Below are positions 7,898 to 25,782 of a DNA stretch of 39,991 nt, piece by piece. The notes beneath the pieces are model-generated. The model did not search any database. It saw nothing but the letters and a program-made list of their open reading frames with translations, and was not told the origin of the DNA. Positions within the stretch are counted from its first letter, which is position 1; every line of letters starts with the position of its first letter. A program made the position numbers and the translations under genes. This DNA comes from a bacterium (GTDB lineage: Bacteria; Actinomycetota; Acidimicrobiia; Spongiisociales; ZC4RG35): positions 1 to 39,991 of the forward strand of contig JAPPFC010000058.1 in the NCBI GenBank assembly GCA_028824015.1, in the 5' to 3' direction.

Positions 7898-9554
7898 TCA
7901 CCGGGCGTCCAGCCACTCCCGGACCACCGAACCGAGGGTGCCGAGCGGGATGGCGCCGTTGCCGAGGACGGTTCTGTGGAAGCTCTTGATGTCGAACGCC
8001 GGGCCCAGCCGGGCCTCGGACTCGGCTCGCAGGGACTCGAATTCCAGGCGCCCCAGCATGTAGGAGAGAGCCTGGCCTGGAGTTGCGATGTAGCGGTCGA
8101 TCTCCTCGGTGATCTCGTGGAGGGACATGGGCGAATGGTCGGCCAGAAACGCGATGGCCTTCTGGCGTGACCAGCCCAGGGCGTGGATGCCGGTGTCGAC
8201 CACCAGCCGCCCGGCCCGCAGCGAGTCGCCGGTGAGCATCCCGACCCGCTCCCAGTCGTCAGCGTAGAGGCCCATCTCTTCGGAGAGGCGTTCGGTGTAA
8301 AGACCCCATCCCTCGCAGAAGGCCGGCAGGTAATCGCGGTGAATGTCGTGGATATCGGGGTTCTCGATGGCCAGGGCCATCTGGAGGTGGTGGCCCGGTA
8401 TGCCCTCGTGATAGGCAACGGCGGGTATCTGGAAGGTCGTCCAGGCCGTGGGGTCGGCAACGTTGAAGAAGAACCGGCCCGGCCTGACGCCGTCGGTCGA
8501 GGGCGGGTAGTAGTAGGCCATGGACCCCACGTCGATGGGGTCGGCCAGACACCGAGCCCGGGGAACGGGGTCGAACCACTCACCCATCGCCCCGGCGGCC
8601 TTGTCGAGACATCGCAGAGCGTCCGCCACCAGGTCCTCGGACCGTGCGTACCGGAGCCCCGGGTCGTCACGGAGGCGGGTGTATATGTCGGTGACTTCGT
8701 GCGTGCCGAGCAACGGTCCGGCAATGCGCCGGTATTCGTCCTCCAGCATCCCGACCCCTCTCCAGGCCCAGTTGGTGAATCTCCTCGGGTTCCAGGCCCA
8801 GGGTCGTATGGGCCCTGACCATGTCGCGGTACACCACGTCGCCGCCTGCCAGGTGGCAGAGCCCGGCCTGATCGTCGGGGCGTCCGGCAGGGAGAGTGAT
8901 CTCGCCGAGAGCCTCCCGGAAGCGGGCCAGCCCGGGCCGCACGCCGGTCTCGATCGCCTTCACCAGCGCCAGCCGCCACCTCTCAGCCTCAGCGGCGCCA
9001 AGTTCGGTGGGGGCGGGCTGGGTGGCGATCGGGTCGTCGGCCGGTTGGCGGGAGAGGATCTGTTGGAGCTTTGCCGTGGTCTGGCGCACATGGCTGGCCA
9101 GGGGTACCACCCCGCTGGCGGCTCCCGCTCGGAGCCTGTCCACCAACTGGTCGATCATTGTCGGGAAGGAACCCAGCTTGTCCAGGTACCGGCGGCCGTG
9201 GTCGACGGTGACCAAAGGCTGGAGGTAGAGCGCCGGAAGCAACGATCTCACCAGCCCGCTCTGGGTGCTGGCCGCCTGCAGTTCCGGCCACCACACCGTC
9301 ACGCTGGCATCCATGAAGGCGGCAGCAGCCAGGGTCTCCGCCAGTATCCGGTCAGAGGTCTCGTCGGTGGTCACCTGGGCTGCATCGGCGGCGAACCGGA
9401 GGAATGTCTCCTTCGACTCCGACAGTCCTTCCGCCGAGAGATCGTCCCACCGTTCCACGTAGCTCAACTCGCCGCGGGAAAGGTTGGCGAAGTGGAGGTG
9501 CTCGAGGCGGTATTTCCAGTACCGGTCAGCCAGTGTCCGGGCGGTTGCTGTCAT
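7898..9554 (-). pseudogene. DUF885-family putative metallopeptidase, interrupted by a one-base frameshift
   Basis: The N-terminal half (from ATG 9554) ends at EEIHQLGLER in one frame and the C-terminal half continues as MLEDEYRRIAG in another. Removing one base from the C4 run at 8755-8758 (G4 on the coding strand) restores LGLERVGMLEDEYRRIAG and a single reading frame of 551 residues, the usual length of DUF885 proteins. The C-terminal half carries the family's hallmark YHEGIPGHHLQ, a likely zinc site, and is otherwise well preserved down to the stop at 7898. The start is firm because the ATG overlaps the nitroreductase TGA as ATGA, implying translational coupling. The lesion may be a homopolymer sequencing error or a recent null mutation. 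DUF885 proteins are thought to be secreted or cytoplasmic peptidases; the substrate is unknown. Confidence 0.82.
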
Positions 9555-10051
9555 CGGCTGAACGATTCTTGGTGAAAGATCTCTTCTCCCGGTTTGCGAC
9601 CTCCGTGCCGGGACGGGCGGGCACCGGGAGCGGGGTAACCGAGCGCGATGGCGTAACGGCACGTCCACCCCGGCGGCAACCCCAGCACGCGAGCCGTGTC
9701 CTCGGTGCGCTGCAGGGTGATGGGGCAGGTGGACATCCCCAGGGCATCGGCCGCCAGCATGATGTTCTGCGCCATTCGTCCCGTGTCGAACTCCCGGGTG
9801 TTGGGTTCCTGGACGAGAGCAAGCGCCACCGGCGCCGCTCGGAGCGGGACGGTGAAGTCACCGCAGTCGGCCAGCCGCTCGATCTGGTCCGGGTTGCGGA
9901 CCACCACGACCGCCCACTTCTGGAGGTTCCTGGAACTTCCCGTCCACCTGGCTGCCTCCAGTACCCGGTCGAGGTCTTCCTGGAGGATCGGACTCTCCTG
10001 ATAGCTACGAATGGCCCGGAGGCCCAGGATGTTTCGGTAGGTCTCACTCAT
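9551..10051 (-). CDS. Nitroreductase family protein
   Basis: 166-residue FMN-dependent nitroreductase-fold protein, first gene of the three-gene minus-strand operon. Seen: LRAIRSYQ near the N-terminus (FMN phosphate-binding Arg-Ser), GSSRNLQKWAVVVV (flavin contact), the DTGRMAQNIMLAADALG helix, and the C-terminal GYP...GRKPGEEIFHQESF typical of the group. Members reduce nitro groups, quinones or enones, or dehalogenate, using NAD(P)H; they normally work as dimers. The protein is short for the family but has both ends. Its stop codon overlaps the start of the DUF885 gene (ATGA). Confidence 0.85.
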   Translation of the reverse strand: MSETYRNILGLRAIRSYQESPILQEDLDRVLEAARWTGSSRNLQKWAVVVVRNPDQIERLADCGDFTVPLRAAPVALALVQEPNTREFDTGRMAQNIMLAADALGMSTCPITLQRTEDTARVLGLPPGWTCRYAIALGYPAPGARPSRHGGRKPGEEIFHQESFSR

Positions 10052-12884: not shown

Positions 12885-14849
12885 CTAGGGGCTGTCGAGC
12901 CTGATGAAGCCCTCTCCGACCAGCCCCTCGAACAACTCCAGGATGTGGCGCGGCTCCACGTCGAAGTTGAACTCGGCGGCGATGGCGTCGGTAACGTCAT
13001 TCACGCTCCGGCGCCCGTCGGTGAGATTCCATATCTCGTCCCCCATTATCCGGAGAGAGTCATAGCGCATCCGGGGGTCCCGAGCATTCATCTCACCGGC
13101 CATGCGGACGCGAGTCTCATAGGAGGTACCGGCGAGCCCGGGCGCATCGCGTTCCACCAGTCGTCTGGGGACCACCATCCCCGGCGCGAACTCTTCCTCC
13201 GGGGCCGATTCCGGCAGCCAGCCCAGCACCTCGTCCAACCGGTCCTGGATCCGCTCGAGCATCCGGTCCCTGGTGGCTTCGAGATCCCAGCTTGCCTCCG
13301 GATCACCTTGATCGGCGAATACCAGGGCTGATTCGACGGCTTTCTTGTCCCTCCGGGCCAGGTGCGCGAGACGTTTTCTTGCGGCCGCGGCGGGCCCTTC
13401 GCCTCGCAGCGCCACCTGGCTCAGTCTCAACTCGCTCCGCGCCGTCACTTCTCTCATGATCTTGACTGCCTCCCGCGGGCCGGCGTAGGCCAGTTCCAGG
13501 GCCGCCAGGGCTATCACCATCCCGCACCTGCGGAAAACCGCGGGATCGAGCATGTTCGGCTTCAGGTAGTCGGTGTGGAAGAAGAGGTCGGGCCACGACA
13601 TGAACAGCGGCGACGCTATGCCGAAGGCTGGATAGTACTTGTTGTCGCTCCAAGGCGTGTAGGGCAGGTCCGGGAAGTTCACGAACGGGATCTCGTCGTC
13701 ATTGCTGAACACCCAGCGCGTCTCCTTGGGAGTCGCCTCGATGAGCGATACGAAATAGTCGTTGATGAAGGTGGGGACCGAGTCCGGGGAGTGATAGAAC
13801 AGGAGCGCGGCCTTGCTCTTTGGCTGGTCGTGGCCGACGCTGTCCAGGGCGATCGAGACTATTCCGTTCTCTGCCTCCTCCCGGTGGTTGTGGAGATAGT
13901 GCTTGGTCCCGTGCCCCTCGACGTCGACGAGGAACCTAATGGTGCGTCGCGGTCGAGGGATATGTCCGTCCGAGATTAGGCGGGAGATCACGCGTCCCAC
14001 TTCGGCCAGCAATGCGGGGCCCGAAGCACAGTTCGCCCCCGGCTTGGTGCCCGCCGTCGAGTGACAGACAAAGTGGATGAACTCATCCGCCCGGTCGGTG
14101 CCGGGAATCTCTCCGAAGAGATTCTGGGCCTCCCCCTTGAAGGTCTTGGCCTGGATGTCGATCCAGACCCTGGCTGTCCCCTGGCGCGCCATCGAAGCGA
14201 GGCGCTCCGCGGCATGGTAATTGACGGCGATCGCCCAGAGTCCCGGGAGGTTGGAAGGCATTCGCAGAAGCTGCACGGGATCCGGCAGGGACTCCCTGGT
14301 CCGGAAGGGAGCCGTGGGGTACAGGAGCGTGTCTGTGATCACGCCCACGGCGCCGTGCTCGGTGGCCAGACCGACCGCGTTGGCGAAGGAATCGGGCACC
14401 GTGGTGCTTCGCACCAGGACCGCCTTGCCACGGACCTCCTGTCGCTGGAAGTCCTCGGACCGCTCACCCGTGCCCACGTCCACCACCTCGACCGTCAACC
14501 CGCCCTCCGGAGTCGACGGCGTCCACCACGGCAGGCAGGAAGGCGAGTCCTCGTAGGAGACCAGGAGCCTTCCATTCTGTGACCCCACCCGCAACTCGGC
14601 GCTCAACGGCTCCCAGGCCAGGGGCATGGTCTGGGTGAGCAACCGGTGTTCGCCGTCCAGGGGGAACCTCTCCACCCAGACGCGTTCCAGGTCGTTGTCT
14701 CTCAGGAGTTGGGCCACGAAGTCGGTGGCTCGGTGGTACCCCGACGACCCCGGGGAACGGTAGAACTTGGTCATGTGGGCCGCGGATTCCAGAGCTCGGT
14801 CCCCCGACAACTCCTCCCCAAGAAGCCTGACGAGTTCTCTTCTGCGCAT
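12885..14849 (-). CDS. M28-like peptidase with altered metal site and C-terminal PqqD-like domain
   Basis: 654 residues, distal gene of the catabolic operon. An N-terminal part with a PA-like insert (about 90-235) leads into an M28 aminopeptidase fold. His263 (FVCHSTAG), Asp336 (IALDSVG) and His425 (FFHTDYLKP) sit where zinc ligands are expected. However, the bridging Asp is replaced in PGANCASG (about 274), and the usual Glu-Glu pair is EG (311-312). The last 60 residues (IWNLTDGRRSVNDVTDAI then LFEGLVGEGFIRL) look like a PqqD-type winged helix, a fold that binds peptides in RiPP pathways. No signal peptide is seen. The protein could be an unusual amide hydrolase or a binding protein without peptidase activity. 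The hydantoinase gene ends 14 bases before it. Confidence 0.75.
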   Translation of the reverse strand: MRRRELVRLLGEELSGDRALESAAHMTKFYRSPGSSGYHRATDFVAQLLRDNDLERVWVERFPLDGEHRLLTQTMPLAWEPLSAELRVGSQNGRLLVSYEDSPSCLPWWTPSTPEGGLTVEVVDVGTGERSEDFQRQEVRGKAVLVRSTTVPDSFANAVGLATEHGAVGVITDTLLYPTAPFRTRESLPDPVQLLRMPSNLPGLWAIAVNYHAAERLASMARQGTARVWIDIQAKTFKGEAQNLFGEIPGTDRADEFIHFVCHSTAGTKPGANCASGPALLAEVGRVISRLISDGHIPRPRRTIRFLVDVEGHGTKHYLHNHREEAENGIVSIALDSVGHDQPKSKAALLFYHSPDSVPTFINDYFVSLIEATPKETRWVFSNDDEIPFVNFPDLPYTPWSDNKYYPAFGIASPLFMSWPDLFFHTDYLKPNMLDPAVFRRCGMVIALAALELAYAGPREAVKIMREVTARSELRLSQVALRGEGPAAAARKRLAHLARRDKKAVESALVFADQGDPEASWDLEATRDRMLERIQDRLDEVLGWLPESAPEEEFAPGMVVPRRLVERDAPGLAGTSYETRVRMAGEMNARDPRMRYDSLRIMGDEIWNLTDGRRSVNDVTDAIAAEFNFDVEPRHILELFEGLVGEGFIRLDSP

Positions 14850-14863
14850 TGGCTCGACTCTCT

Positions 14864-16354
14864 CTAGTTGACGTCGAACCCGCCGGGAGCGTACGCGGCG
14901 GCATCGGGATCGCCCGGGATGTAGCGGGCCCTACCCGGTTTCCCGACCAACTCCCCGTCCTCGATGACCACCTCACCCCGCACCATGGTCACAACCGGCA
15001 TGCCCAGGAGTTCGGTGCCCTTGAAGGTGGAGAAGTCGCTGATGCCGTGTTCCTGGTCCACCAGATGCCTCTTTGCGGGATCCCAGACCACGATGTCGGC
15101 GTCGGAGCCGGGTTGAAGGATCCCTTTGCGGGGGTACACGCCGAAGATCTTGGCGGGGTTCTCGCAGAAGACCTGGACGAACCGGGGCAGGGTCATGCGC
15201 CCGCCGTTGACGCCGTGTGTCCACACGACCGGCATCATGAACTCCAGGGTGGTGAGTCCCGCTCCGATCTCGAAGATGTTCTCCTGGCCCGCCTCGGGTT
15301 CTTCAGCGTGACCGTCCAGGGTGCCGGTCAGCTTCAACGCCCGGGTGTATCCGGTGTAGTCGCTGCCGATCACGTCCAGCGCTCCGCTCGCCAGTCCCCG
15401 CCACATGGCCTCCTTGTCCTCTTCTTCTCTCAGAGGCGGGGCCACCTTCAGCAGGTACCCCTCCCTGATGAGGTCGTCATTGGTGAGGGCGAGATAGTGC
15501 GGGCAGGTCTCTCCATAGATGGGGAGTCCCTGGCTCTTGTACTGCTCCAGGATCGACACTATCTCCCTGGTGCTCAGGTGCACCGGATAGACCGGGCAGT
15601 CGGCCACCGTCGCCATGGTGGCGGCGCGGTGCACCGCCTCGGCTTCGATGATGTTGGGCGCCGACGCGTTGTAGTGGTGGACCGAGACCTTGCCCTCCGA
15701 TCTGAACTGTCGCTCCAGGTAAGCCTTGCACACGCCGTTCTCGGCATGGATCATCGCCATGCCGCCCTCCCGGCCCGCCAGGTCCATGACCGTCATGATC
15801 AGGTCGTCGGGGATGGCGAGGAGGTTGGTTCGCGAGTCCGCTCCCGCCCATGGGTTCCAGACCATGAACATCTTGAAGGCGTTCACCCCCAGACCAATCA
15901 GTTCGGGGATTACCTTTTGGATGTCCTCCTCGTCTCGCTTGGTGATCAGTCCGTGGATGGCGAAGTCGGTGTAGGAGACCTCTTCTGCGTATTCGATGAA
16001 CCCCTTCACTATGTCGGGGTTGTACTTTCTCACGCCCCAGTGGTTCCCGAACATCTCGTGGCGGTGGGTCTCGGAGCCAATGAAGGGGACCACCGTGGTG
16101 ACGCCCCCATAGGCGGCACAGATGGAGTAGGTGTCCATCTTCTCTCCGAAGATGGGATGTGCATGGGAGTCCAGACCCCCGGGCAGGACGTATTTTCCGG
16201 AGGCGTCGATGGTGCGTTTGGCGCTCCGATCCGATAGCTCGTCCCCCAGCTCCAGGACCTTGCCGCCCCCGACGAGGACATCCGAACGGGTGATCCCTTG
16301 CCCGGAAACCAGGAGACCGCCCCGCACGAGAACATCGGCCATTGATGTGTCCAT
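14864..16354 (-). CDS. Dihydropyrimidinase/hydantoinase family cyclic amidohydrolase
   Basis: 496-residue amidohydrolase-superfamily TIM barrel flanked by a composite beta sandwich. The binuclear metal site is complete: His64/His66 (DSHAHP), the carboxylatable Lys161 (AFKMFMVW), His203 (MIHAEN), His259 (YPVHLST) and Asp332 (GSDYTGY). Such enzymes open cyclic ureides, imides or hydantoins to N-carbamoyl or amic acids. In dihydropyrimidinases the residue five after the lysine is a substrate-binding Tyr; here it is Trp166, so the substrate probably differs. GTG at 16360 and ATG at 16342 are alternative starts; ATG 16354 follows a purine-rich AGAGAGTGAG. It sits between the phosphotriesterase-like and M28-like genes. 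Confidence 0.9.
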   Translation of the reverse strand: MDTSMADVLVRGGLLVSGQGITRSDVLVGGGKVLELGDELSDRSAKRTIDASGKYVLPGGLDSHAHPIFGEKMDTYSICAAYGGVTTVVPFIGSETHRHEMFGNHWGVRKYNPDIVKGFIEYAEEVSYTDFAIHGLITKRDEEDIQKVIPELIGLGVNAFKMFMVWNPWAGADSRTNLLAIPDDLIMTVMDLAGREGGMAMIHAENGVCKAYLERQFRSEGKVSVHHYNASAPNIIEAEAVHRAATMATVADCPVYPVHLSTREIVSILEQYKSQGLPIYGETCPHYLALTNDDLIREGYLLKVAPPLREEEDKEAMWRGLASGALDVIGSDYTGYTRALKLTGTLDGHAEEPEAGQENIFEIGAGLTTLEFMMPVVWTHGVNGGRMTLPRFVQVFCENPAKIFGVYPRKGILQPGSDADIVVWDPAKRHLVDQEHGISDFSTFKGTELLGMPVVTMVRGEVVIEDGELVGKPGRARYIPGDPDAAAYAPGGFDVN

Positions 16355-16471
16355 ACTCACTCTCTCGGTCCTCGTCGGCGCCGGCTTTCCCGGTTCAGTG
16401 TACTTGTCGAGGAGGGCGGGTGGAGGCTTCCTGCGAGGGTTTGAACACCGGGATCGTCCCCGGAGTCGCGG

Positions 16472-17431
16472 CTAGGGGATGTCAAGCGCCCTGCCGGGAT
16501 TGGCGACCATCATCTTCTGGATCTCCGCGTCGGTCACCCCCAGCGACTCAAGCCTGGGCAAGAAGTCCTCGAAGATGTGGCAGTACCCGGACCGGCCCGC
16601 GTTATGCAGGTCAGTCTCGCGGTTCGTGTCCTGGGAGAGAAGCAGGTTGTCGACGTACCCCCTTCGAACCAACGCATGCACCAACTCGGCCCTGGTCTGA
16701 TCCAGCAGGTAGTGCTCCTTTCCGATTACGTCGAACTGGATGAAGCATCCTTGGTCGGCCAACCCGGATAGGACGTCTATGTCCGGCCGCTCGTCCACAT
16801 GACCGACGATGAGCCGGGAGGGACTCACCCCCTCTGACTCGAGGATCTCCAGTTGCTGGACTCCCGCCACTCCCCCCGGTATCTCCATGCGCCGGTCACC
16901 CGTGGTGTGGGTGGTGATCACCGCACCCGTGCGCCTCTGGGCGACCGCCACCGCCATCAACACCTTCAACTCCACGCCCTCCACCCTGGCCCGGTGTATG
17001 GCCGACTTGAACAGACCGCACCGGCGTCTCCCGTCACCCACCCCTGCCTCTATCTCTCGGGTCATGTGGTCGGCAAGGCGCTCCTCGGACCACTCGTGTA
17101 CGAATCCCGGAATGTGGGGCTCTATGTAAAACCCCGATGTCGCCACTATGTGCACCCCGGTGGCCTCCGAGAGCCTGGCCAGCACATCCAGGTCCCTGCC
17201 CCATCCGTCACAGGTCACGTCCACCATCGCCCCGCCCCCGGCCCGGCGATAGGCCCGGAGTTCGGACACCATCACGTCGAAGTCGTCCAACCGCATGTAG
17301 GTGCTTTCGGGACGGGTGGCCGCCAGCAGGTCCGCCCGCGGCCCGAGGCGCTGGTCGCACCAGATGTGCTCGTGGGGCAGGCAGACGCCCAACTGATCGG
17401 GGTCTATGGGACCCAACACGGTCTGGATCAC
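16472..17431 (-). CDS. Phosphotriesterase-family metal hydrolase (lysine type)
   Basis: 319 residues, full length for the family. The binuclear site is visible: His20-x-His22 (LPHEHIWCD), Lys142 for carbamylation (GLFKSA), His175 (ITTHTTG), His211 (VGHVDERPD) and Asp268 (LSQDTNRE). Natural members are mostly lactonases or carboxylesterases; promiscuous phosphotriesterase activity is secondary. Here it may hydrolyse a lactone or ester intermediate of the operon's pathway. It lies 20 bases downstream of the isochorismatase-like gene and about 120 bases before the hydantoinase. It is cytoplasmic, with no signal peptide. It differs from the second family member at 24556-25626, which has Glu in place of Lys. 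Confidence 0.9.
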   Translation of the reverse strand: MIQTVLGPIDPDQLGVCLPHEHIWCDQRLGPRADLLAATRPESTYMRLDDFDVMVSELRAYRRAGGGAMVDVTCDGWGRDLDVLARLSEATGVHIVATSGFYIEPHIPGFVHEWSEERLADHMTREIEAGVGDGRRRCGLFKSAIHRARVEGVELKVLMAVAVAQRRTGAVITTHTTGDRRMEIPGGVAGVQQLEILESEGVSPSRLIVGHVDERPDIDVLSGLADQGCFIQFDVIGKEHYLLDQTRAELVHALVRRGYVDNLLLSQDTNRETDLHNAGRSGYCHIFEDFLPRLESLGVTDAEIQKMMVANPGRALDIP

Positions 17432-17451
17432 TCGTGCACCTCTACCGTCAC

Positions 17452-18087
17452 CTAGATGAGAACCGCGCCCTGCTTCTCCACCACGTCGAACAGATCCAGC
17501 ACCTCACCGGTGGTGCGGAGCTTTATCAGGCCATGGGCGATGTTGGCGCTCATATAGTCCTGGCCGGCCCTGGTAAGCGCCGCCACCGCGTCCGAAACGA
17601 CCAGGCTGCCGATGCCGCGGTCGGAGAGCTCGAGGCACGTCTGGTTTATGCCGAACTCCAGCATGGCGCCCAGGACCACCACGTTGGTGAGGCCGTTCTC
17701 TGCCAGATACGAGGCGAAGGCCGGATTGGACAGCGCGCTCCAGCCCGGCTTGGGAAGGACCAACTCATGCTCCAGGGGCTCCCAGGCCGGCAGGTAACCG
17801 CCGTCGCCTCCCCCCAGGTCCCACAGCCAGCCGGTGGCCCGCTGGAACTCCGAGACGTCGTCGTCCCGGTAGCCCAGGCTGGCATAGACGACGCCCATCT
17901 CCATGCGACGCGCCGCGCCCAACACCTTGGGGATGTTCCCGGAGATGACGGCCAGGAGTTCGAAGTACTCCTCGAACTCCCTGGTCAGCACCTTCCGTGC
18001 GACCCGCCGCGCCAACCATCCATGCTCGGGGTCGGTGAACGGAGCATGGACATCCTGCAGCAGCAGGCAGGAATTGCTCGCAGTCAG
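17452..18087 (-). CDS. Isochorismatase-like hydrolase, probable CTG start
   Basis: 211 residues with the Rossmann-like isochorismatase/cysteine hydrolase fold. Asp12 (LLLQDVHAPF) and Lys113 (LPKPGWSAL) match the catalytic Asp and Lys. Where amidohydrolase members have the nucleophilic Cys, GAMLEFGINQTC has Gly146, as in true isochorismatases (EntB, PhzD), so a vinyl-ether hydrolase role is possible; Cys151 is five residues later. No ATG, GTG or TTG precedes Asp12 in this frame. The CTG at 18087 aligns with a GTG in a homologous remnant downstream of the second SDR gene (20317), which is the reason for this start. No good SD is present; the nearest GGGAG is 15 bases upstream. Its upstream neighbour is an SDR gene. 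Confidence 0.75.
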   Translation of the reverse strand: MTASNSCLLLQDVHAPFTDPEHGWLARRVARKVLTREFEEYFELLAVISGNIPKVLGAARRMEMGVVYASLGYRDDDVSEFQRATGWLWDLGGGDGGYLPAWEPLEHELVLPKPGWSALSNPAFASYLAENGLTNVVVLGAMLEFGINQTCLELSDRGIGSLVVSDAVAALTRAGQDYMSANIAHGLIKLRTTGEVLDLFDVVEKQGAVLI

Positions 18088-18118
18088 GGTAAGGGGTCGC
18101 GACTCCCTGGTAACCAGG
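18063..18118. repeat. Copy A of a duplicated SDR 3' flank
   Basis: This stretch aligns with 20293-20347 with one single-base gap and roughly three bases in four identical. Both copies begin with GCAGGCAG and end in ACCAGG, and both end exactly 23 bases before the stop codon of an SDR gene (18141 and 20370). Copy A covers the first codons of the isochorismatase-like gene. Confidence 0.7.
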
Positions 18119-18119
18119 G
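18105..18119. promoter_or_regulatory. Perfect 15-base palindrome before the isochorismatase-like gene
   Basis: CCCTGGT, a central A, and ACCAGGG make a perfect 7-1-7 palindrome, 17 bases before the CTG start and just after the SDR stop. The related copy at 20333-20347 is imperfect. It could be an operator half-site pair or an RNA hairpin controlling the downstream gene; the sequence does not decide. Confidence 0.35.
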
Positions 18120-18140
18120 TCAGGGGATGGCGCGGTGCGA

Positions 18141-19043
18141 TCAGGGTCCTCCGCCCGGTCTTTGTCTGTGCCGTTCCTCCCTCTCCCACTGCTCCTGCCA
18201 CTCCCACCGAGATTGCATGTCTCCCGGATCCGGCGTGACTTTGTGGGGGGCGAACTCGAAATCCCATCCCTCGGCGGCAACGGTGTCCACCACCATTCCT
18301 GCGTCGAAGCAGAGTCCGGTGAACCTTCCCGGGGGCTGGTCGGCCAGCCAGACAAAGCCCTCCCCCAGCACGGTCGGATCGGTCCACCCGGATCTGACGT
18401 CTTCGGGCACCTGCGCCGCTTGTGCCAGGGTCATCCCGGTTGGCTTGATTCGTTTCCCGGAGCCGGGGCCCATGGTGTTGACCGCGATGTTGTATGGCGC
18501 CCACTCTATGGCCAAGGACTTGGTGAACCCTTCCAGGCCGTGCTTTCCCACGCAGTACGCAACCCCGTTGGGATAAGCGAAGAAGCCGGCGCGGCTGGCG
18601 ACGGAGATGATGTGTCCACCGCCATGAGCCCTCATTGCGTCCCGAACCGCCTTGGCGCCGTTGAACAGGCCACCCAGATGGATCTGCAACTCGTGCCACC
18701 AGAATTCATGAGAAGTGTCGTCCAGACTGATCACCGGCATTATCGCCGCAGCGTGAATCAAAGCGTCCAGCCGGCCCCACTCGTCAACCACCCTACCGAC
18801 GACATCATCGAACATCTGGGGGTCGGCCATGTCCAAAGGGAGGGTGACCAGATGCGTCTCCGGAATCTCTGTTCCATGGAAAGAGGCTTCCATGTCCTCT
18901 TCATCCACATCGGTCGCGCAGACCCTGACGCCGGCCCGTCCGAAAGCTTTGGCGATACCGCAACCGAGGCCTCTACCCGCGCCTGTCACCAGCGCTACTT
19001 TCCCCTCCAGTTGCAGGATGGCGGGGTTTCCTCTGAGAATCAT
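18141..19043 (-). CDS. SDR family oxidoreductase (paralogue 1)
   Basis: 300-residue classical short-chain dehydrogenase. TGAGRGLGCG at residues 20-29 is the dinucleotide-binding motif, TDVDE after beta-2 contains the acidic residue that favours NAD(H), and the catalytic Ser (SVASRAG) and Tyr-x3-Lys (YCVGKHG) are present. Past the usual core there is a longer C-terminal tail with an EW-rich charged end. It should oxidise a hydroxyl or reduce a ketone in the operon's pathway. It is closely related to the SDR at 20370-21239, including the N-terminal MIL..NP leader, so the two arose by duplication. The ATG start has AGTTAGG about 7-12 bases upstream, conserved before the paralogue. Confidence 0.9.
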   Translation of the reverse strand: MILRGNPAILQLEGKVALVTGAGRGLGCGIAKAFGRAGVRVCATDVDEEDMEASFHGTEIPETHLVTLPLDMADPQMFDDVVGRVVDEWGRLDALIHAAAIMPVISLDDTSHEFWWHELQIHLGGLFNGAKAVRDAMRAHGGGHIISVASRAGFFAYPNGVAYCVGKHGLEGFTKSLAIEWAPYNIAVNTMGPGSGKRIKPTGMTLAQAAQVPEDVRSGWTDPTVLGEGFVWLADQPPGRFTGLCFDAGMVVDTVAAEGWDFEFAPHKVTPDPGDMQSRWEWQEQWEREERHRQRPGGGP

Positions 19044-19113
19044 GACGAACCTAACTGATCCGGAGACCCGATGCAGTTGCAGATCGAGTCTAACTCTCCA
19101 CCACCTGTCCCGG

Positions 19114-20268
19114 TCACAGGGTTGAAGTCTCGGTCTCGAGACCCAGGCGCATGCGGCCCACGGTCTCCAGCGTCCTCGGCGCCACCATGGCGTGCTGGGC
19201 CGCCACCGCCGTGTCCCGCAGGCAGCGCTGGATCGGGCTCGTCCGATAAACCGCCGCCCCTCCCGCGGTCCGGAACATCAAGGCGGCCACGTCGGCCGCG
19301 GTCTGGGTGGCGTGGGTCGCCGCCATCCGAATGTGGCGTCTCTGATCGACCGTCGAGGACCGTCCCACCAGCGCGTCACCGAAGGTGTCATCCACCGCGT
19401 CGACCAGCAATGTCCATGCCGCGGCCAGCCTCGCCTCGGCCTTTGCCACCTCTGCCTGGGTTGCTGCCCGCTCGGCCAGGGTCCTGGTGCTGCCCTGGGG
19501 CTTCTTCGCCCGGGCCAGTTTCACCAGTTCGTCGATCGAGCGGCGGGCGATTCCCACCGCCACGGCTCCCACCCCGCTGGCCAAAAGCCCGTAGAAGGAG
19601 AACCGGGACCAGACGTTGTCCCGCACCGGCGCCATCGCGTCCAACTGCACCCAGCGCCCCTCGGGCACGTAGACGTCGCGCGCCTCGAAGTCGACCGAGC
19701 CGGTGCCGGCCAGACCGGCCACGTCCCAGGTGTCAAGCAGTTCGAGATCGCCGGGATCCATGAAAACGAAGGGCACGGACAGCCCGTCGGGACGGGGCTT
19801 GGGCCGCCCGTCGGCGCCGACCACGAGACAACCGCCGCCGATGGTGGTGCAGTGCTTGACGCCCGACCCCCACTGCCAGCGCCCCGAGACTAACAGGCCG
19901 CCGTCGACGGGCACCGCCCGTCCCCGGGGAACCACGAATCCTCCGCCGATCGCCCCGGAATCACCAAACAGGTCGGCGGCATGCGGATCGGGAAGGTACG
20001 ACGCCAGCACCGACGTTGTGGAGCCGATCGCCACGCACCAGCCGACCGAGCCGTCGTGGTAGGCGAACTCCTCGAAGACCTTCAAGCTCTCCGTGACCGT
20101 CACCCCGGGTCCGCCCAGGTCGTCGGGCACACAGAGGCGGAAGGCGCCGGTCAGCCGGATGGCATCCACCAGGTCGAGTGGCAGCGTGCCCAGCGCCTCG
20201 ATCTCTGCCGATCGGGCTCGCACCTGCGGGCCGAGGTGGCGGGCCGAAGCCAGCACCGCATGAGTCAC
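19114..20268 (-). CDS. Acyl-CoA dehydrogenase-fold flavin-dependent monooxygenase
   Basis: About 384 residues of the acyl-CoA dehydrogenase fold, closest in pattern to the oxygenase components HsaA/HpaB-like and DszC-like (C-terminal Acyl-CoA_dh_2 type). Marks: EEFAYHDGSVGWC, VSGRWQWGSG in the beta domain, GTGSVDFEARDVYVPEG, and the C-terminal YRTSPIQRCLRDTAVAAQH. Such enzymes use FMNH2 or FADH2 from a separate reductase to hydroxylate aromatic rings or S/N-containing compounds. No reductase is adjacent; the nitroreductase or another flavin reductase could serve, which is inference. A TTG at 20304 would add 12 residues; the GTG at 20268 fits the family better. It sits between the two SDR genes. 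Confidence 0.85.
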   Translation of the reverse strand: MTHAVLASARHLGPQVRARSAEIEALGTLPLDLVDAIRLTGAFRLCVPDDLGGPGVTVTESLKVFEEFAYHDGSVGWCVAIGSTTSVLASYLPDPHAADLFGDSGAIGGGFVVPRGRAVPVDGGLLVSGRWQWGSGVKHCTTIGGGCLVVGADGRPKPRPDGLSVPFVFMDPGDLELLDTWDVAGLAGTGSVDFEARDVYVPEGRWVQLDAMAPVRDNVWSRFSFYGLLASGVGAVAVGIARRSIDELVKLARAKKPQGSTRTLAERAATQAEVAKAEARLAAAWTLLVDAVDDTFGDALVGRSSTVDQRRHIRMAATHATQTAADVAALMFRTAGGAAVYRTSPIQRCLRDTAVAAQHAMVAPRTLETVGRMRLGLETETSTL

Positions 20269-20292
20269 GACCCCAAATCTAGGGCTGGGCGG

Positions 20293-20347
20293 GCAGGCAG
20301 ACAATGTTCGCGGTCACAATGGAACTCTCGACTCCCCGGTGACCAGG
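20293..20347. repeat. Copy B of the duplicated SDR 3' flank, truncated isochorismatase-gene start
   Basis: This is homologous to 18063-18118. On the minus strand GTG at 20317 opens VTANIVCLPAQP and then a stop, corresponding to the first codons (TASNSCL) of the isochorismatase-like gene. The rest of that gene is absent and the monooxygenase gene follows. I read it as the scar of a lost second isochorismatase-like gene. Confidence 0.6.
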
Positions 20348-20369
20348 CCCAAGGGGTGAGGAAAGACCC

Positions 20370-21239
20370 TCAGTACCCCCGTCCCGATTCCTTGGCGTAC
20401 CACTCCCATCTCGATTTCATGTCTTCAGGCGCCGACGTGACCTTTGCGGGAGCGAAGTCGAACTCCCAGCCCTCGGTTGCTATGGTGTCGACGATCCTCG
20501 CTGCATTGAAGCAGAGTCCTGTGAGTCTGTCGGGAGGCTGGCTCGCCAACCAGACAAAACCCTGGCCCAGTTCGATGGGATCCGCCCAGGTTGACTTCAC
20601 GTCCTCGGGCGTCGATTCCGCCTCTGCCACGGTGACCCCCGACGGCTTGATTCGGCTACCGGGCCCCATGGCGTTGATGGCGATGTTGTGAGGCGCCGCC
20701 TCTAAGGACAGGGACTTGGTGAACCCCTCAGAGCCGTGCTTTCCCACGCAATACGCAACCTCATTGGCAAAACCGTGAAAACTGGAGAGGCTGGCCACGG
20801 AGATGATGTGCCCGCCACCTTGGCCCTTCATCACGTCCCACACCGCCTTCGTCCCGTTGAACAGGCCACCCAGATTGATGGTGACCTCTTGCCACCATGC
20901 CGCATGGGATGTCTCCTCGAAACTGATCAACGGCATTATCACGGCCGCATGAACCAGCACATCCAACCTGCCCCATTCATCAACCACTGTGCGGACGACA
21001 TCGTCGAACGCTTCAGGGTCGGTCACATCCAGAGGCAGGTTGAGCAACCGGTTCCCGGACGTCTCCATCCCCCGGAAGGAAGCTTCCATCTCCACCTCGT
21101 CCACGTCGGTGGCGCACACCTTCACACCGGCTCCCAGGAAAGCCTTGGCGATGCCGCAGCCGAGGCCCCGGCCGGCGCCCGTCACCAGCGCAACCTTGCC
21201 CTCCAGTCGGGTCAGGGGTGGGTTGCGGTCAAGGATCAA
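20370..21239 (-). CDS. SDR family oxidoreductase (paralogue 2)
   Basis: 289-residue short-chain dehydrogenase, first gene of the seven-gene catabolic operon. TGAGRGLGCG, TDVDEVEME, SVASLSSF and YCVGKHGSEG give the NAD-binding and Ser/Tyr/Lys catalytic motifs. It aligns with paralogue 1 along its whole length but lacks that protein's charged tail, ending SRWEWYAKESGRGY. The start is a TTG at 21239. Its MILDRNPPLTRLEGK matches the MILRGNPAILQLEGK of paralogue 1, and GGTTAGGTCGATC before it is conserved. The two enzymes may act on successive or stereochemically different alcohols in one pathway. Confidence 0.9.
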   Translation of the reverse strand: MILDRNPPLTRLEGKVALVTGAGRGLGCGIAKAFLGAGVKVCATDVDEVEMEASFRGMETSGNRLLNLPLDVTDPEAFDDVVRTVVDEWGRLDVLVHAAVIMPLISFEETSHAAWWQEVTINLGGLFNGTKAVWDVMKGQGGGHIISVASLSSFHGFANEVAYCVGKHGSEGFTKSLSLEAAPHNIAINAMGPGSRIKPSGVTVAEAESTPEDVKSTWADPIELGQGFVWLASQPPDRLTGLCFNAARIVDTIATEGWEFDFAPAKVTSAPEDMKSRWEWYAKESGRGY

Positions 21240-21504: not shown

Positions 21505-24000
21505 ATGGGACGGATCCTAGGTGGTAGGCCGGCGGTGCGCAGGATGGCGCGGGCGTGCGTCGCCTTCGCCCTGATAGCGAGCGTGCTCGCCATTCCGGGA
21601 TTGGGAACGGTGTTGGGCCAGGAGTCCCCGGAATGCGAGGAGATAGACCTCGGGACGCTCAGCGGGGAGGCGTTGGAGGCGGTCGGGCGCTGGACGGACG
21701 ATGACTGCGATTCACGGTTCCGCGTCGGCAGCGCCGCCCACACCTATCGGTTCGGAGTCTCCACGGCAGGACGCGTCAGGATCGATCTGACATCCACCGG
21801 GGCCGACCCATACCTCTACCTGCTGGCGGAGGACGGTACCCGCATCGCTGACAACGACGACGGGGGAGGCAACATCAACGCCCGTGTGGAGCGTGACCTG
21901 CAACCCGGGACCTACCTGATCGAGGCAACGACGGTCGGCGGGCGGAGCCGGGGACCTGCGGACTTCGCCATCTCCGTCAGCTACGTCGCCGGTTGCGAGC
22001 CGGTGCATCTCGGCACGCTGGAAGCGGGAGCCGACCTCACCGCATCCGGGTCCTGGACACTGGACACATGCGGGTCGCGCTTCGTCGTCGAGCATCCAGC
22101 TCACGGTTACACGTTCAACCTTGAGCAGGGCGGTCGCGTGCGGATCGACCTGACATCGGAGGACGGCGATCCCGTCATGTCGCTGGCGTCACTGTCGGGC
22201 CGGATAATCGGAGCCAACGACGACGGCGGGGAGTCGCGCAACGCCCGCATAGACCGATACCTGCCCGCCGGTGGCTACTTCATCGAGGCGACCACCTACC
22301 GGGAGCGCGACAACCAACCCCTGCGATCCGATTTTCGCCTGACGGTCCACCTGGTGGACGAGCAGGCCGAACAGAAGCGCGCCAAGTTGAAGATCGAGGA
22401 CGCGCACGTCCCCTGGGAGGTGGTGGCGGGCGATCCATTCCCCGTCCAGTACCGCGCCGGGAACGTGGGGGGCGATCTCGTCCCCGGTGGCTACGCCTTG
22501 CTGTACGTGGTCGGGCCGGGCGTGTTCGAACTCCTCGGCCCAGTTTCCAGGCACTGGCAGGCAGGAGTCTCCTACCACTCAGGGGCCGAGACGGCGAGCG
22601 GGAACAGTTCCTCGATCAGGCCCCTAACCCCGTTCGAGGTGAGTTTCAATCGGTCAGGCCCCTCGTGGCTGTTCGTAGGCGTCGTCACCTACGACAGGGC
22701 GGGAAACGAGATCGGGTTCCACGGCCTGTGGAAGAACCTGATGGTCCTGAGCGGTCCGGTTTTCGAACCCGTGGACGTGCGCGTAGACGGCGCCAGATAC
22801 ACAGTGACCACGGTTTTCGACCGCGAGGGAAGGGTCAGGACCGAGGTCATCTCCGGCACCGGCTCACCGGTGGATTGGCAGGTCCGGCTCAGAGCGATCT
22901 ACACAGCTGGCGTGGTGACCCAGCTTTTGGGCGGAGTGTTCGAGCGGCCGGGGATCACGGCTCTGTCGGAGAGGGCGAAACCGGCGCCGGTCACCGTGGC
23001 GAACCTGTCGACCGGCGCCCTACTGGAGCCCTTTGTACAGCGATACGTCTCCGTCGCCGACAAATCGGGGATGATCGATTCCCTGGCCGCCGGGGAGGCG
23101 CTCAACCCGATCACCGTCGAGGACTCCGTGCTGCAGGCCGCCGCCGCAGCATCTTCGGAGTTCGCCTGGATGGCCTCCTCCTGGCGCTCGCTCCGCAATC
23201 GGATCAACAGTGGCGCGACGCTGTCCTTCGAGGAGGCGCTCAAGACCCATTCGCAGGTCACCTACGCCGAAAGCGTCGTCGCGGCGACGGTCACCGCGGG
23301 AGAGATCGTCACTGCGGCGCGGGCTGCCGAGAGAGGATGGGAGGACGCCAAAGTACGGGGGATGATGGCAGAGCAGGCAGGCTGCAACCCCGGAACGGAC
23401 GCATTGCGGGACGCGATCGAGACAACCGACGCCGCCGATGTCGAGGCGCTGCTGGCTCTCGACGCGGAAATGCGTGCGATCCGGCCCATCCACGGGCTGG
23501 CCGTGGACAGCGCCCTGTGCTCGGTACGGACGGCCCGCGCTGCCAACCTCCGATTCCTGCAACGCCTGGCGATCAGCCAAAGTCCCGGGCTTCGCAGCCT
23601 GGTCGGTCTCGAGACGCCCCCGGCATCCCGCCCAGAGTCCCACCGACTGCGCATAGTCGCCCGGTTAGGCGAGGACGGCCGCATCGAGCACGGCGTCGAG
23701 CTTGCCGACGGCCGGCAGGTGGTGCTGCCTCAGCGATTCCTGGGGGTCGGCGCACCTGCGGGAAGGTGGCATGTGAGTGCTGACGTGGAGGTTGGGGAAG
23801 GCTCGATCGGGAGAATCCGGGCGCGGCGCGGCGCAGATGGCAGGACCGAACTGGGATTCGTGGGCGCCGACGGCGAGCCGATCGTCCCCCACATTCGCTA
23901 CCTTCCAGCCGACCCACCGGTGGGCGTCTGGTTCCGCACCAGCGAGATCGAGGTTCCCGCAGCGGTGTTGATGGACCCGCCCAACCCCGGCGAACGGTAA
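21505..24000 (+). CDS. Secreted protein with two pre-peptidase C-terminal (PPC) domains
   Basis: 831 residues. A signal peptide (about 1-38, cut near VLGQ/ES) is followed by two tandem PPC-type beta domains (about 42-155 and 157-282) that share the pattern CE...LGTL, GRVRIDLTS, NDDGG..NAR, and L.(P/A)G.Y.IEATT, each with a Cys pair. A beta-rich segment (about 290-410) precedes a mainly helical region (about 490-690) and a C-terminal beta-rich part with two similar stretches (LGEDGRIEHGVELADGRQVVLP; RGADGRTELGFVGADGEPIVP). No peptidase catalytic motif or membrane anchor is visible, so it is probably an exported binding or structural protein of unknown partner. The ATG has AAGGAG six bases upstream. 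Confidence 0.85.
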   Translation: MGRILGGRPAVRRMARACVAFALIASVLAIPGLGTVLGQESPECEEIDLGTLSGEALEAVGRWTDDDCDSRFRVGSAAHTYRFGVSTAGRVRIDLTSTGADPYLYLLAEDGTRIADNDDGGGNINARVERDLQPGTYLIEATTVGGRSRGPADFAISVSYVAGCEPVHLGTLEAGADLTASGSWTLDTCGSRFVVEHPAHGYTFNLEQGGRVRIDLTSEDGDPVMSLASLSGRIIGANDDGGESRNARIDRYLPAGGYFIEATTYRERDNQPLRSDFRLTVHLVDEQAEQKRAKLKIEDAHVPWEVVAGDPFPVQYRAGNVGGDLVPGGYALLYVVGPGVFELLGPVSRHWQAGVSYHSGAETASGNSSSIRPLTPFEVSFNRSGPSWLFVGVVTYDRAGNEIGFHGLWKNLMVLSGPVFEPVDVRVDGARYTVTTVFDREGRVRTEVISGTGSPVDWQVRLRAIYTAGVVTQLLGGVFERPGITALSERAKPAPVTVANLSTGALLEPFVQRYVSVADKSGMIDSLAAGEALNPITVEDSVLQAAAAASSEFAWMASSWRSLRNRINSGATLSFEEALKTHSQVTYAESVVAATVTAGEIVTAARAAERGWEDAKVRGMMAEQAGCNPGTDALRDAIETTDAADVEALLALDAEMRAIRPIHGLAVDSALCSVRTARAANLRFLQRLAISQSPGLRSLVGLETPPASRPESHRLRIVARLGEDGRIEHGVELADGRQVVLPQRFLGVGAPAGRWHVSADVEVGEGSIGRIRARRGADGRTELGFVGADGEPIVPHIRYLPADPPVGVWFRTSEIEVPAAVLMDPPNPGER

Positions 24001-24555: not shown

Positions 24556-25626
24556 CTAATGGCCAAGCAGCTGTTTCGGGTTCTCGACCAGGACACGCTC
24601 CAGCGTTGTGTCGTCGACCCCCGCATGACGCAGGGCAGGAACGATATTGCGGAGGATGTGGGCGTATCCGTAGCCTCCGTACCGTATCAGTTGGGTCTTG
24701 TAGCAGGTGTCCTGGGAGATCAGTATTTGATCGCCGTACCCGAGAGCCAGCAGCTGGAGCAATTGTTGGTGACGCTGGGAGTCGTGGCTGTTGTAGCTGA
24801 AGTCGATGGAGTCGTAGTAGTTCTCCAGGCCGAAGTTGTCGAATGAGATGAACACGCCCATATCGGCCACCTGTTTTTGGTAGTCGAGGTTCATGTAGCC
24901 GTCCATGTGACACATGTTGACCTTCCGTGGGTCCACACCGCTGCGTAGTACGAACCGGGCGACCTCGGGAGCGATCCTGCTTCTGGCGCCGAAATAGGGG
25001 TGAATGTAGAGCGGCAGGCCCGTCTGTTTCTGCGCCAGGCATGCGGCTTCGAGGACCTTCCACTCGTCTGGTTCAACGGGTTGGCTGAGGCCGATCTCGC
25101 CGATCACACCGGGTCTGATGCCGGTCCCGTCGATGCCTTCCTCTATTTCGGAGATGATCCGCTCGGCTAGGGACCCGGCACTAGAAGTGCTCACGTACTC
25201 CGGATGGGATGGCTGTATGTAGTACCCGCATCCCGCGATCACATTGACACCTACCCCTGAAGACACTGCCCTGAGGCCGGCCGGGTAGAGGTGCGGTGAT
25301 CGGGGGCGGGGACCGATCGGAGTGGCGTCCACGATGGTCCTCCCGCCGTACTCGGCGAAGTCGGATATCTCAGAGATGGCCAGATCGATGTCGTCAAGGA
25401 CCATGAAGTCGGGGAACTTCGAGTAGTCGCGGCGCCACTCTCCCAGCATGTGAATCTCCGGTGGGCCGTACTGGGCGTCGGGATTGTCCTCCTGGTAAGC
25501 GTGGCGCATATCGAGGAAGATGTGCTCGTGAACGAGTGTTGTTCCGATGTCCGCGACGGCCACCGGGCCGGTCACTGTCATGACGGTTGCTTGCCGTTCT
25601 CCTGAGAGGAGTCCCGATTCCGGCAT
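24556..25626 (-). CDS. Phosphotriesterase-family hydrolase (glutamate type)
   Basis: 356 residues. Metal-site motifs: His33-x-His35 (LVHEHIFLD), Glu177 (GVIGEIGLS) at the place of the carbamylated lysine, His in YIHPYFG, His in NMCHMDGY, and Asp in ISQDTCYK. Glutamate at the bridging position is known from the E. coli phosphotriesterase homology protein, so the site can still bind two metals. The likely substrate is an ester or lactone. The ATG at 25626 is preceded by AAAGGA at six bases; an ATG at 25665 would add 13 unrelated residues. It is a monocistronic gene, slightly richer in A/T than its neighbours, and only a distant paralogue of the operon copy at 16472-17431. Confidence 0.9.
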   Translation of the reverse strand: MPESGLLSGERQATVMTVTGPVAVADIGTTLVHEHIFLDMRHAYQEDNPDAQYGPPEIHMLGEWRRDYSKFPDFMVLDDIDLAISEISDFAEYGGRTIVDATPIGPRPRSPHLYPAGLRAVSSGVGVNVIAGCGYYIQPSHPEYVSTSSAGSLAERIISEIEEGIDGTGIRPGVIGEIGLSQPVEPDEWKVLEAACLAQKQTGLPLYIHPYFGARSRIAPEVARFVLRSGVDPRKVNMCHMDGYMNLDYQKQVADMGVFISFDNFGLENYYDSIDFSYNSHDSQRHQQLLQLLALGYGDQILISQDTCYKTQLIRYGGYGYAHILRNIVPALRHAGVDDTTLERVLVENPKQLLGH

Positions 25627-25782
25627 TGAAGGTCCTTTCGGCGTGGCCAAGCCGTTCTGTCTCACACCTCACCTCAGTCTCCAGCCGCCCGGTTCCAGTA
25701 GGGGAACACCTCGTTTGGGCGCCCTCCTTGGGGATGACGTCGCCACCCTCTGCCCGATCGTGGAAACCGTCTGACCGGTGGT

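Follow-up and report, generated by a model that had tools for sequence, protein, structure and literature searches.

The window analysed here (the whole stretch of 39,991 nucleotides, contig C15 of a 2.9 Mb genome in 60 contigs) carries a real and conserved seven-gene cluster, whose products belong to known families of enzymes and show unusual changes in their active sites. The host is an uncultured actinobacterium with relatives known solely as metagenome bins. Deletion scars in these relatives, described here for the first time, indicate a seven-gene ancestor and repeated losses. The cluster is tentatively read as a genus-restricted catabolic cluster that would oxidise and then hydrolytically open small cyclic amides or imides, and possibly lactones.

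Layout and conservation of the cluster

The seven co-directional ORFs lie at positions 12885-21239 of the minus strand and encode, from 5' to 3': (i) a short-chain dehydrogenase (SDR1), (ii) a flavin monooxygenase, (iii) a second SDR (SDR2), (iv) an isochorismatase-fold protein, (v) a phosphotriesterase-family hydrolase (PTE), (vi) a hydantoinase and (vii) an M28-like protein. The intergenic gaps in this order are 65, 70, -7, 20, 111 and 14 bp, with the -7 bp value hinging on the isochorismatase-fold start codon, which is uncertain as upstream GTG codons overlap SDR2. Families were assigned with Pfam and NCBIfam profiles and by comparison with solved structures. A first-pass annotation of the DNA had reported these seven genes on one strand with short gaps, and its coordinates and families are confirmed (gaps of -7 to 111 bp). 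Its statement that the cluster lacks an N-carbamoylase and a ring-cleavage dioxygenase also agrees with the Pfam/NCBIfam results for the seven genes, among which there is no ureidopropionase either. As it had further stated, the gene set is not known to fit any standard hydantoin, pyrimidine or aromatic pathway. No regulator or dedicated transporter is identified within the cluster. A promoter and terminator scan found no sigma-70-like promoter and found terminator-like matches to be rarer than in shuffles; thus, it is from gene layout alone that the cluster is predicted to form an operon.

Conservation of the neighbourhood in relatives, which the first-pass annotation had named as a check on its proposal, is found, and the complete lack of conservation that would have refuted that proposal is thereby excluded: the cluster occurs in full in G110 and in part in G109, G107 and G108, all four of them genomes of the same genus. 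Compared to the window, every cluster gene has a dN/dS of 0.07-0.24 at a dS of ~0.2-0.7, and all seven genes are under purifying selection. Since other genomes keep the order and strand at this site despite such divergence and under such selection, the cluster is not a chance grouping. In the window, G109 and G110, the cluster is flanked by an ABC-2 transporter pair on one side and a gene for a PPC-domain protein on the other; the latter (21505-24000 in the window) is divergent and directly upstream of the cluster.

Among the genomes searched, the cluster is restricted to the genus. The M28-like protein has orthologues of 89-94% identity in three other genomes of the genus, listed in public records as RHO1_bin_22, RHO3_bin_31 and Acidimicrobiia bacterium SB0665_bin_24, which, from the bin names, are presumably sponge-derived. 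No further orthologues are found among the genomes searched (138 from the order, 396 from the phylum and 395 from the class), and the phylum search returns weak M28-type relatives, the top one sharing 29% identity across residues 4-473. Hydantoinase orthologues (93-94%) occur in the same three genomes, with nothing else above 42%, and SDR1 is 81-84% identical in four relatives. A literature search for links between sponges, Acidimicrobiia and hydantoinase or creatinine found nothing.

Predicted enzymes and their active sites

The first gene encodes SDR1 (20370..21239, minus strand; Pfam PF00106, 1.4e-44), an NAD-type short-chain dehydrogenase with a YxxxK motif and an Asp after beta2, as read from the sequence. 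SDR2 (18141..19043, minus strand; assigned by Pfam and tree) is its tandem paralogue at 67% identity. The two SDRs form separate clades across the genus; thus, the duplication predates the split of these genomes. Plasmid matches of the SDRs are distant and uninformative. Based on their family, both enzymes would oxidise alcohols, newly formed or pre-existing.

Between the SDR genes lies the oxygenase component of a flavin-dependent monooxygenase (19114..20304, minus strand) that has the acyl-CoA-dehydrogenase fold and is kin to two-component enzymes of the Rv3094c/HsaA type. Among solved structures, its sequence best matches, over nearly the full length, that of Rv3094c, a two-component-type flavin monooxygenase of Mycobacterium tuberculosis (PDB 7f70, E 8e-71), and the NCBIfam HsaA match (3.5e-44) falls below the cut-off. 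The enzyme is predicted from its family to oxygenate the substrate with reduced flavin from a separate reductase. Unlike the Rv3094c type, there is no adjacent flavin reductase in this cluster, and the nearest nitroreductase-like gene (9551..10051, minus strand) is ~9 kb away. This gene product may be the flavin reductase partner, as nitroreductase-like genes are found near monooxygenase homologues in G105, G120 and G106. In G105 and G120 the homologues (~38-44% identity) are also near enoyl-CoA-hydratase-like and ABC transporter genes. In G106 the monooxygenase orthologue is away from the cluster locus and is beside sarcosine-oxidase-like as well as nitroreductase-like genes, in a region spanning 3617-11167 of L128.

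The hydantoinase-type cyclic amidohydrolase (14864..16360, minus strand) scores 340.5 bits to the D-hydantoinase model NCBIfam TIGR02033, below the curated equivalog cut-off of 393.25. Similarly to D-hydantoinase and dihydropyrimidinase (1nfg, 1k1d), it has the fold and all six metal ligands (His-x-His, carboxylated Lys, His, His and Asp), as tabulated by residue over its relatives. By contrast, the substrate Tyr of the third gate loop is replaced by Trp, a change that the first-pass annotation had noticed and that the 1nfg alignment and residue table corroborate; this Trp is followed by an 8-residue insertion in the third gate loop, after the carboxylysine loop, and the His after the metal Asp is a Tyr. 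The Trp and the full insertion are common to the four orthologues only; all other relatives compared have the Tyr and none has the full insertion. With its metal centre intact and its substrate pocket rebuilt, the enzyme would, by family, open a cyclic amide. Compared to hydantoin and pyrimidine catabolic operons, the cluster differs in having no N-carbamoylase or ureidopropionase beside the hydantoinase. The closest relative of this enzyme, at 42% identity in G352, adjoins a CN_hydrolase gene, with MmgE/PrpD, molybdenum hydroxylase and MobA-like genes nearby; this neighbourhood resembles a heterocycle-degradation context and is counted in favour of a ring-opening role.

The PTE (16472..17431, minus strand; PF02126, 1e-64) has the full metal-ligand set of its family (HxH, Lys, His, His and Asp) by alignment to E. 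coli PHP and direct reading, and may open a lactone or ester, as its fold suggests. It differs from OPH and PHP in scoring far below the equivalog cut-offs of both. Plasmid matches of the PTE are distant and uninformative. A second phosphotriesterase-family gene (24556-25665, minus strand) is in the window and is ~31% identical to the cluster PTE in relatives.

The isochorismatase-fold protein (17452..~18147, minus strand) matches the superfamily profile (PF00857, 1.9e-19) and retains the catalytic Asp and Lys. The position of the catalytic Cys is occupied by Gly in alignments to 6xj4 and to orthologues, which have the same Gly; the protein was thus correctly described as Cys-less in the first-pass annotation, and it does not have the nucleophile of cysteine hydrolases. 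The fold, Asp and Lys are shared with true isochorismatases (PhzD, EntB) and with isochorismatase-like hydrolases (biuret hydrolase). Overall, the sequence is nearest, weakly, to biuret hydrolase/cysteine hydrolase structures, and the Gly at the Cys position presumably resembles true isochorismatases. True isochorismatases use acid-base chemistry with no thiol, and the cluster protein may act in this way. In other searches, the protein has no match among plasmids and the isochorismatase profile has weak matches in genomes of the phylum. A creatinine/N-carbamoylsarcosine route is rejected, since the amidohydrolase of that route uses the Cys, which is absent here.

The M28-like protein (12885..14849, minus strand) has a C-terminal winged-helix-like domain. 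Its only direct profile match is PqqD-type (PF05402, 0.00032), at the C-terminus and below the cut-off; its M28/DUF4910 homology is instead supported through relatives, by alignment with M28 proteins and a haloarchaeal homologue. His263, Glu311, Asp336 and His425 are kept, and the bridging Asp is gone (N-CASG compared to NDNASG of M28 relatives), such that the complete dizinc site of M28 peptidases is not present. The N-CA at this site is also seen in the haloarchaeal homologue. The nearest full-length M28 relative (33-35%) is on a plasmid of the haloarchaeon Natronosalvus, with ABC transporter, amidohydrolase, dipeptidase, formamidase and SDR genes as neighbours; this setting is likewise counted in favour of the catabolic reading, although these SDRs are only 26-30% identical to those of the cluster. 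The structure of CA_C2195, a DUF4910 protein with a C-terminal winged helix and a degenerate site, has been solved, and this protein is proposed to function in modified sugar biosynthesis (PMC4000134). The window protein is similar in its M28-like domain, winged-helix-like domain and degenerate metal site; by contrast, the residues lost are different (in the window protein, the bridging Asp is missing and the two His, Glu and Asp are kept), as is the gene context. The altered protein may partner the hydantoinase in a binding or other non-peptidase role. The AlphaFold models (mean pLDDT 35.6 for the M28-like protein and 39.7 for the isochorismatase-fold protein) are too poor for use, as just 4 and 3 close sequences, respectively, were available for alignment. 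More distant M28/DUF4910 proteins (L035-L037), from small AT-rich genomes of the same phylum, are rejected as members of the same cluster, as their neighbours are housekeeping and radical SAM genes.

Gene losses and competing explanations

G110 has all seven genes, and each partial cluster is missing a different part. In G109 the monooxygenase is missing from the cluster, with a break from window position 20366 to 19051. G107 is without the monooxygenase, the isochorismatase-fold gene and most of the PTE gene: its alignment spans 21233 to 20368 and restarts at 19154, leaving ~40 bp of the monooxygenase 3' end, and a second break from 18138 to 16594 leaves ~120 bp of the PTE 3' end. The monooxygenase is not found elsewhere in the incomplete G107 and G109 assemblies. 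G108 has SDR1, the monooxygenase, SDR2 and the isochorismatase-fold gene on one short contig, and no PTE, hydantoinase or M28 gene is found in this incomplete assembly. Its match to the window breaks off at 17450 on one contig and at 12888 on a second. The two contig ends (L124 end, L125 start) have a 16-bp inverted match in common (15/16), which suggests a mobile element, itself unassembled, at the junction where the three genes are missing. The PTE-hydantoinase-M28 block was likely lost in G108 at this unassembled junction. Most breakpoints coincide with gene ends. In G106 the transporter is present at the locus with no cluster genes. In a tree of the two transporter genes that has G106 as its root, G107 and G109 do not group as sisters; thus, the monooxygenase was probably lost at least twice, if this tree is right.

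Given these scars, the ancestor is inferred to have carried all seven genes, different parts of which were later lost. The SDR pair is the only set of genes present in all five clusters. The view of this pair as a retained core, with the other genes as optional add-ons, together with the seven-gene ancestor, is the best supported part of the explanation. A catabolic toolkit is consistent with the enzyme families, intact metal sites, conserved order at one locus, purifying selection and deletion scars; counted against it is the monooxygenase that stands alone at the other G106 locus beside sarcosine-oxidase-like genes.

The same G106 gene and the mosaic retention would also fit a set of neighbouring catabolic genes that share a locus and have separate jobs with no common substrate, and the differing losses could mean that the genes were never part of a shared pathway. 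Such independence is rather doubtful, as spacing is tight, gene order is kept over the genus and no genome examined has the hydantoinase gene without the M28 gene or the reverse. A new ring-opening route is a more speculative proposal and is considered unlikely; in it, the Cys-less isochorismatase-fold protein and the M28-like protein (with a Cys close to where the bridging Asp would be) would perform chemistry undescribed for their families, alongside a hydantoinase with a new specificity. The first-pass annotation had favoured a dedicated pathway for one specific natural product, with a lactam, imide or ureide as the putative substrate class. A single linear pathway of this kind, with all seven enzymes required, is improbable: both the window genome and G110 have the full, colinear set and all its genes are under purifying selection, yet G107, G109 and G108 are without different parts, and the missing genes (the monooxygenase in G107 and G109, the hydantoinase and M28 genes in G108) do not turn up anywhere else in these incomplete assemblies. 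Thus, the seven genes probably do not make up a single pathway in which each step is obligatory. A biosynthetic or tailoring cluster that applies oxidation and amide chemistry to a secreted molecule is very unlikely, since hydrolases dominate and the seven genes include no scaffold-forming enzyme, carrier protein or exporter, even though SDRs and acyl-CoA-dehydrogenase-type monooxygenases are often tailoring enzymes and modified sugar biosynthesis has been put forward for DUF4910 proteins (PMC4000134). Diketopiperazine cleavage was also considered as a route; the enzymes responsible are left unclear in PMC3852281.

If the enzymes cooperate in the oxidation and opening of cyclic compounds, the cluster would show by what means this uncultured genus of actinobacteria exploits cyclic nitrogen compounds of an unrecognised class, and its three active-site variants (the hydantoinase, the Cys-less isochorismatase fold and the altered M28) are offered for direct tests of chemistry. 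The natural series of partial clusters reveals which genes can go without others and helps in the design of such tests.

Elsewhere in the window, two overlapping ORFs (7898-9668, minus strand) appear to be parts of a single long gene that a frameshift has broken. G107 has just one ORF, with 547 codons or more, at the matching place. The split could be an assembly error.
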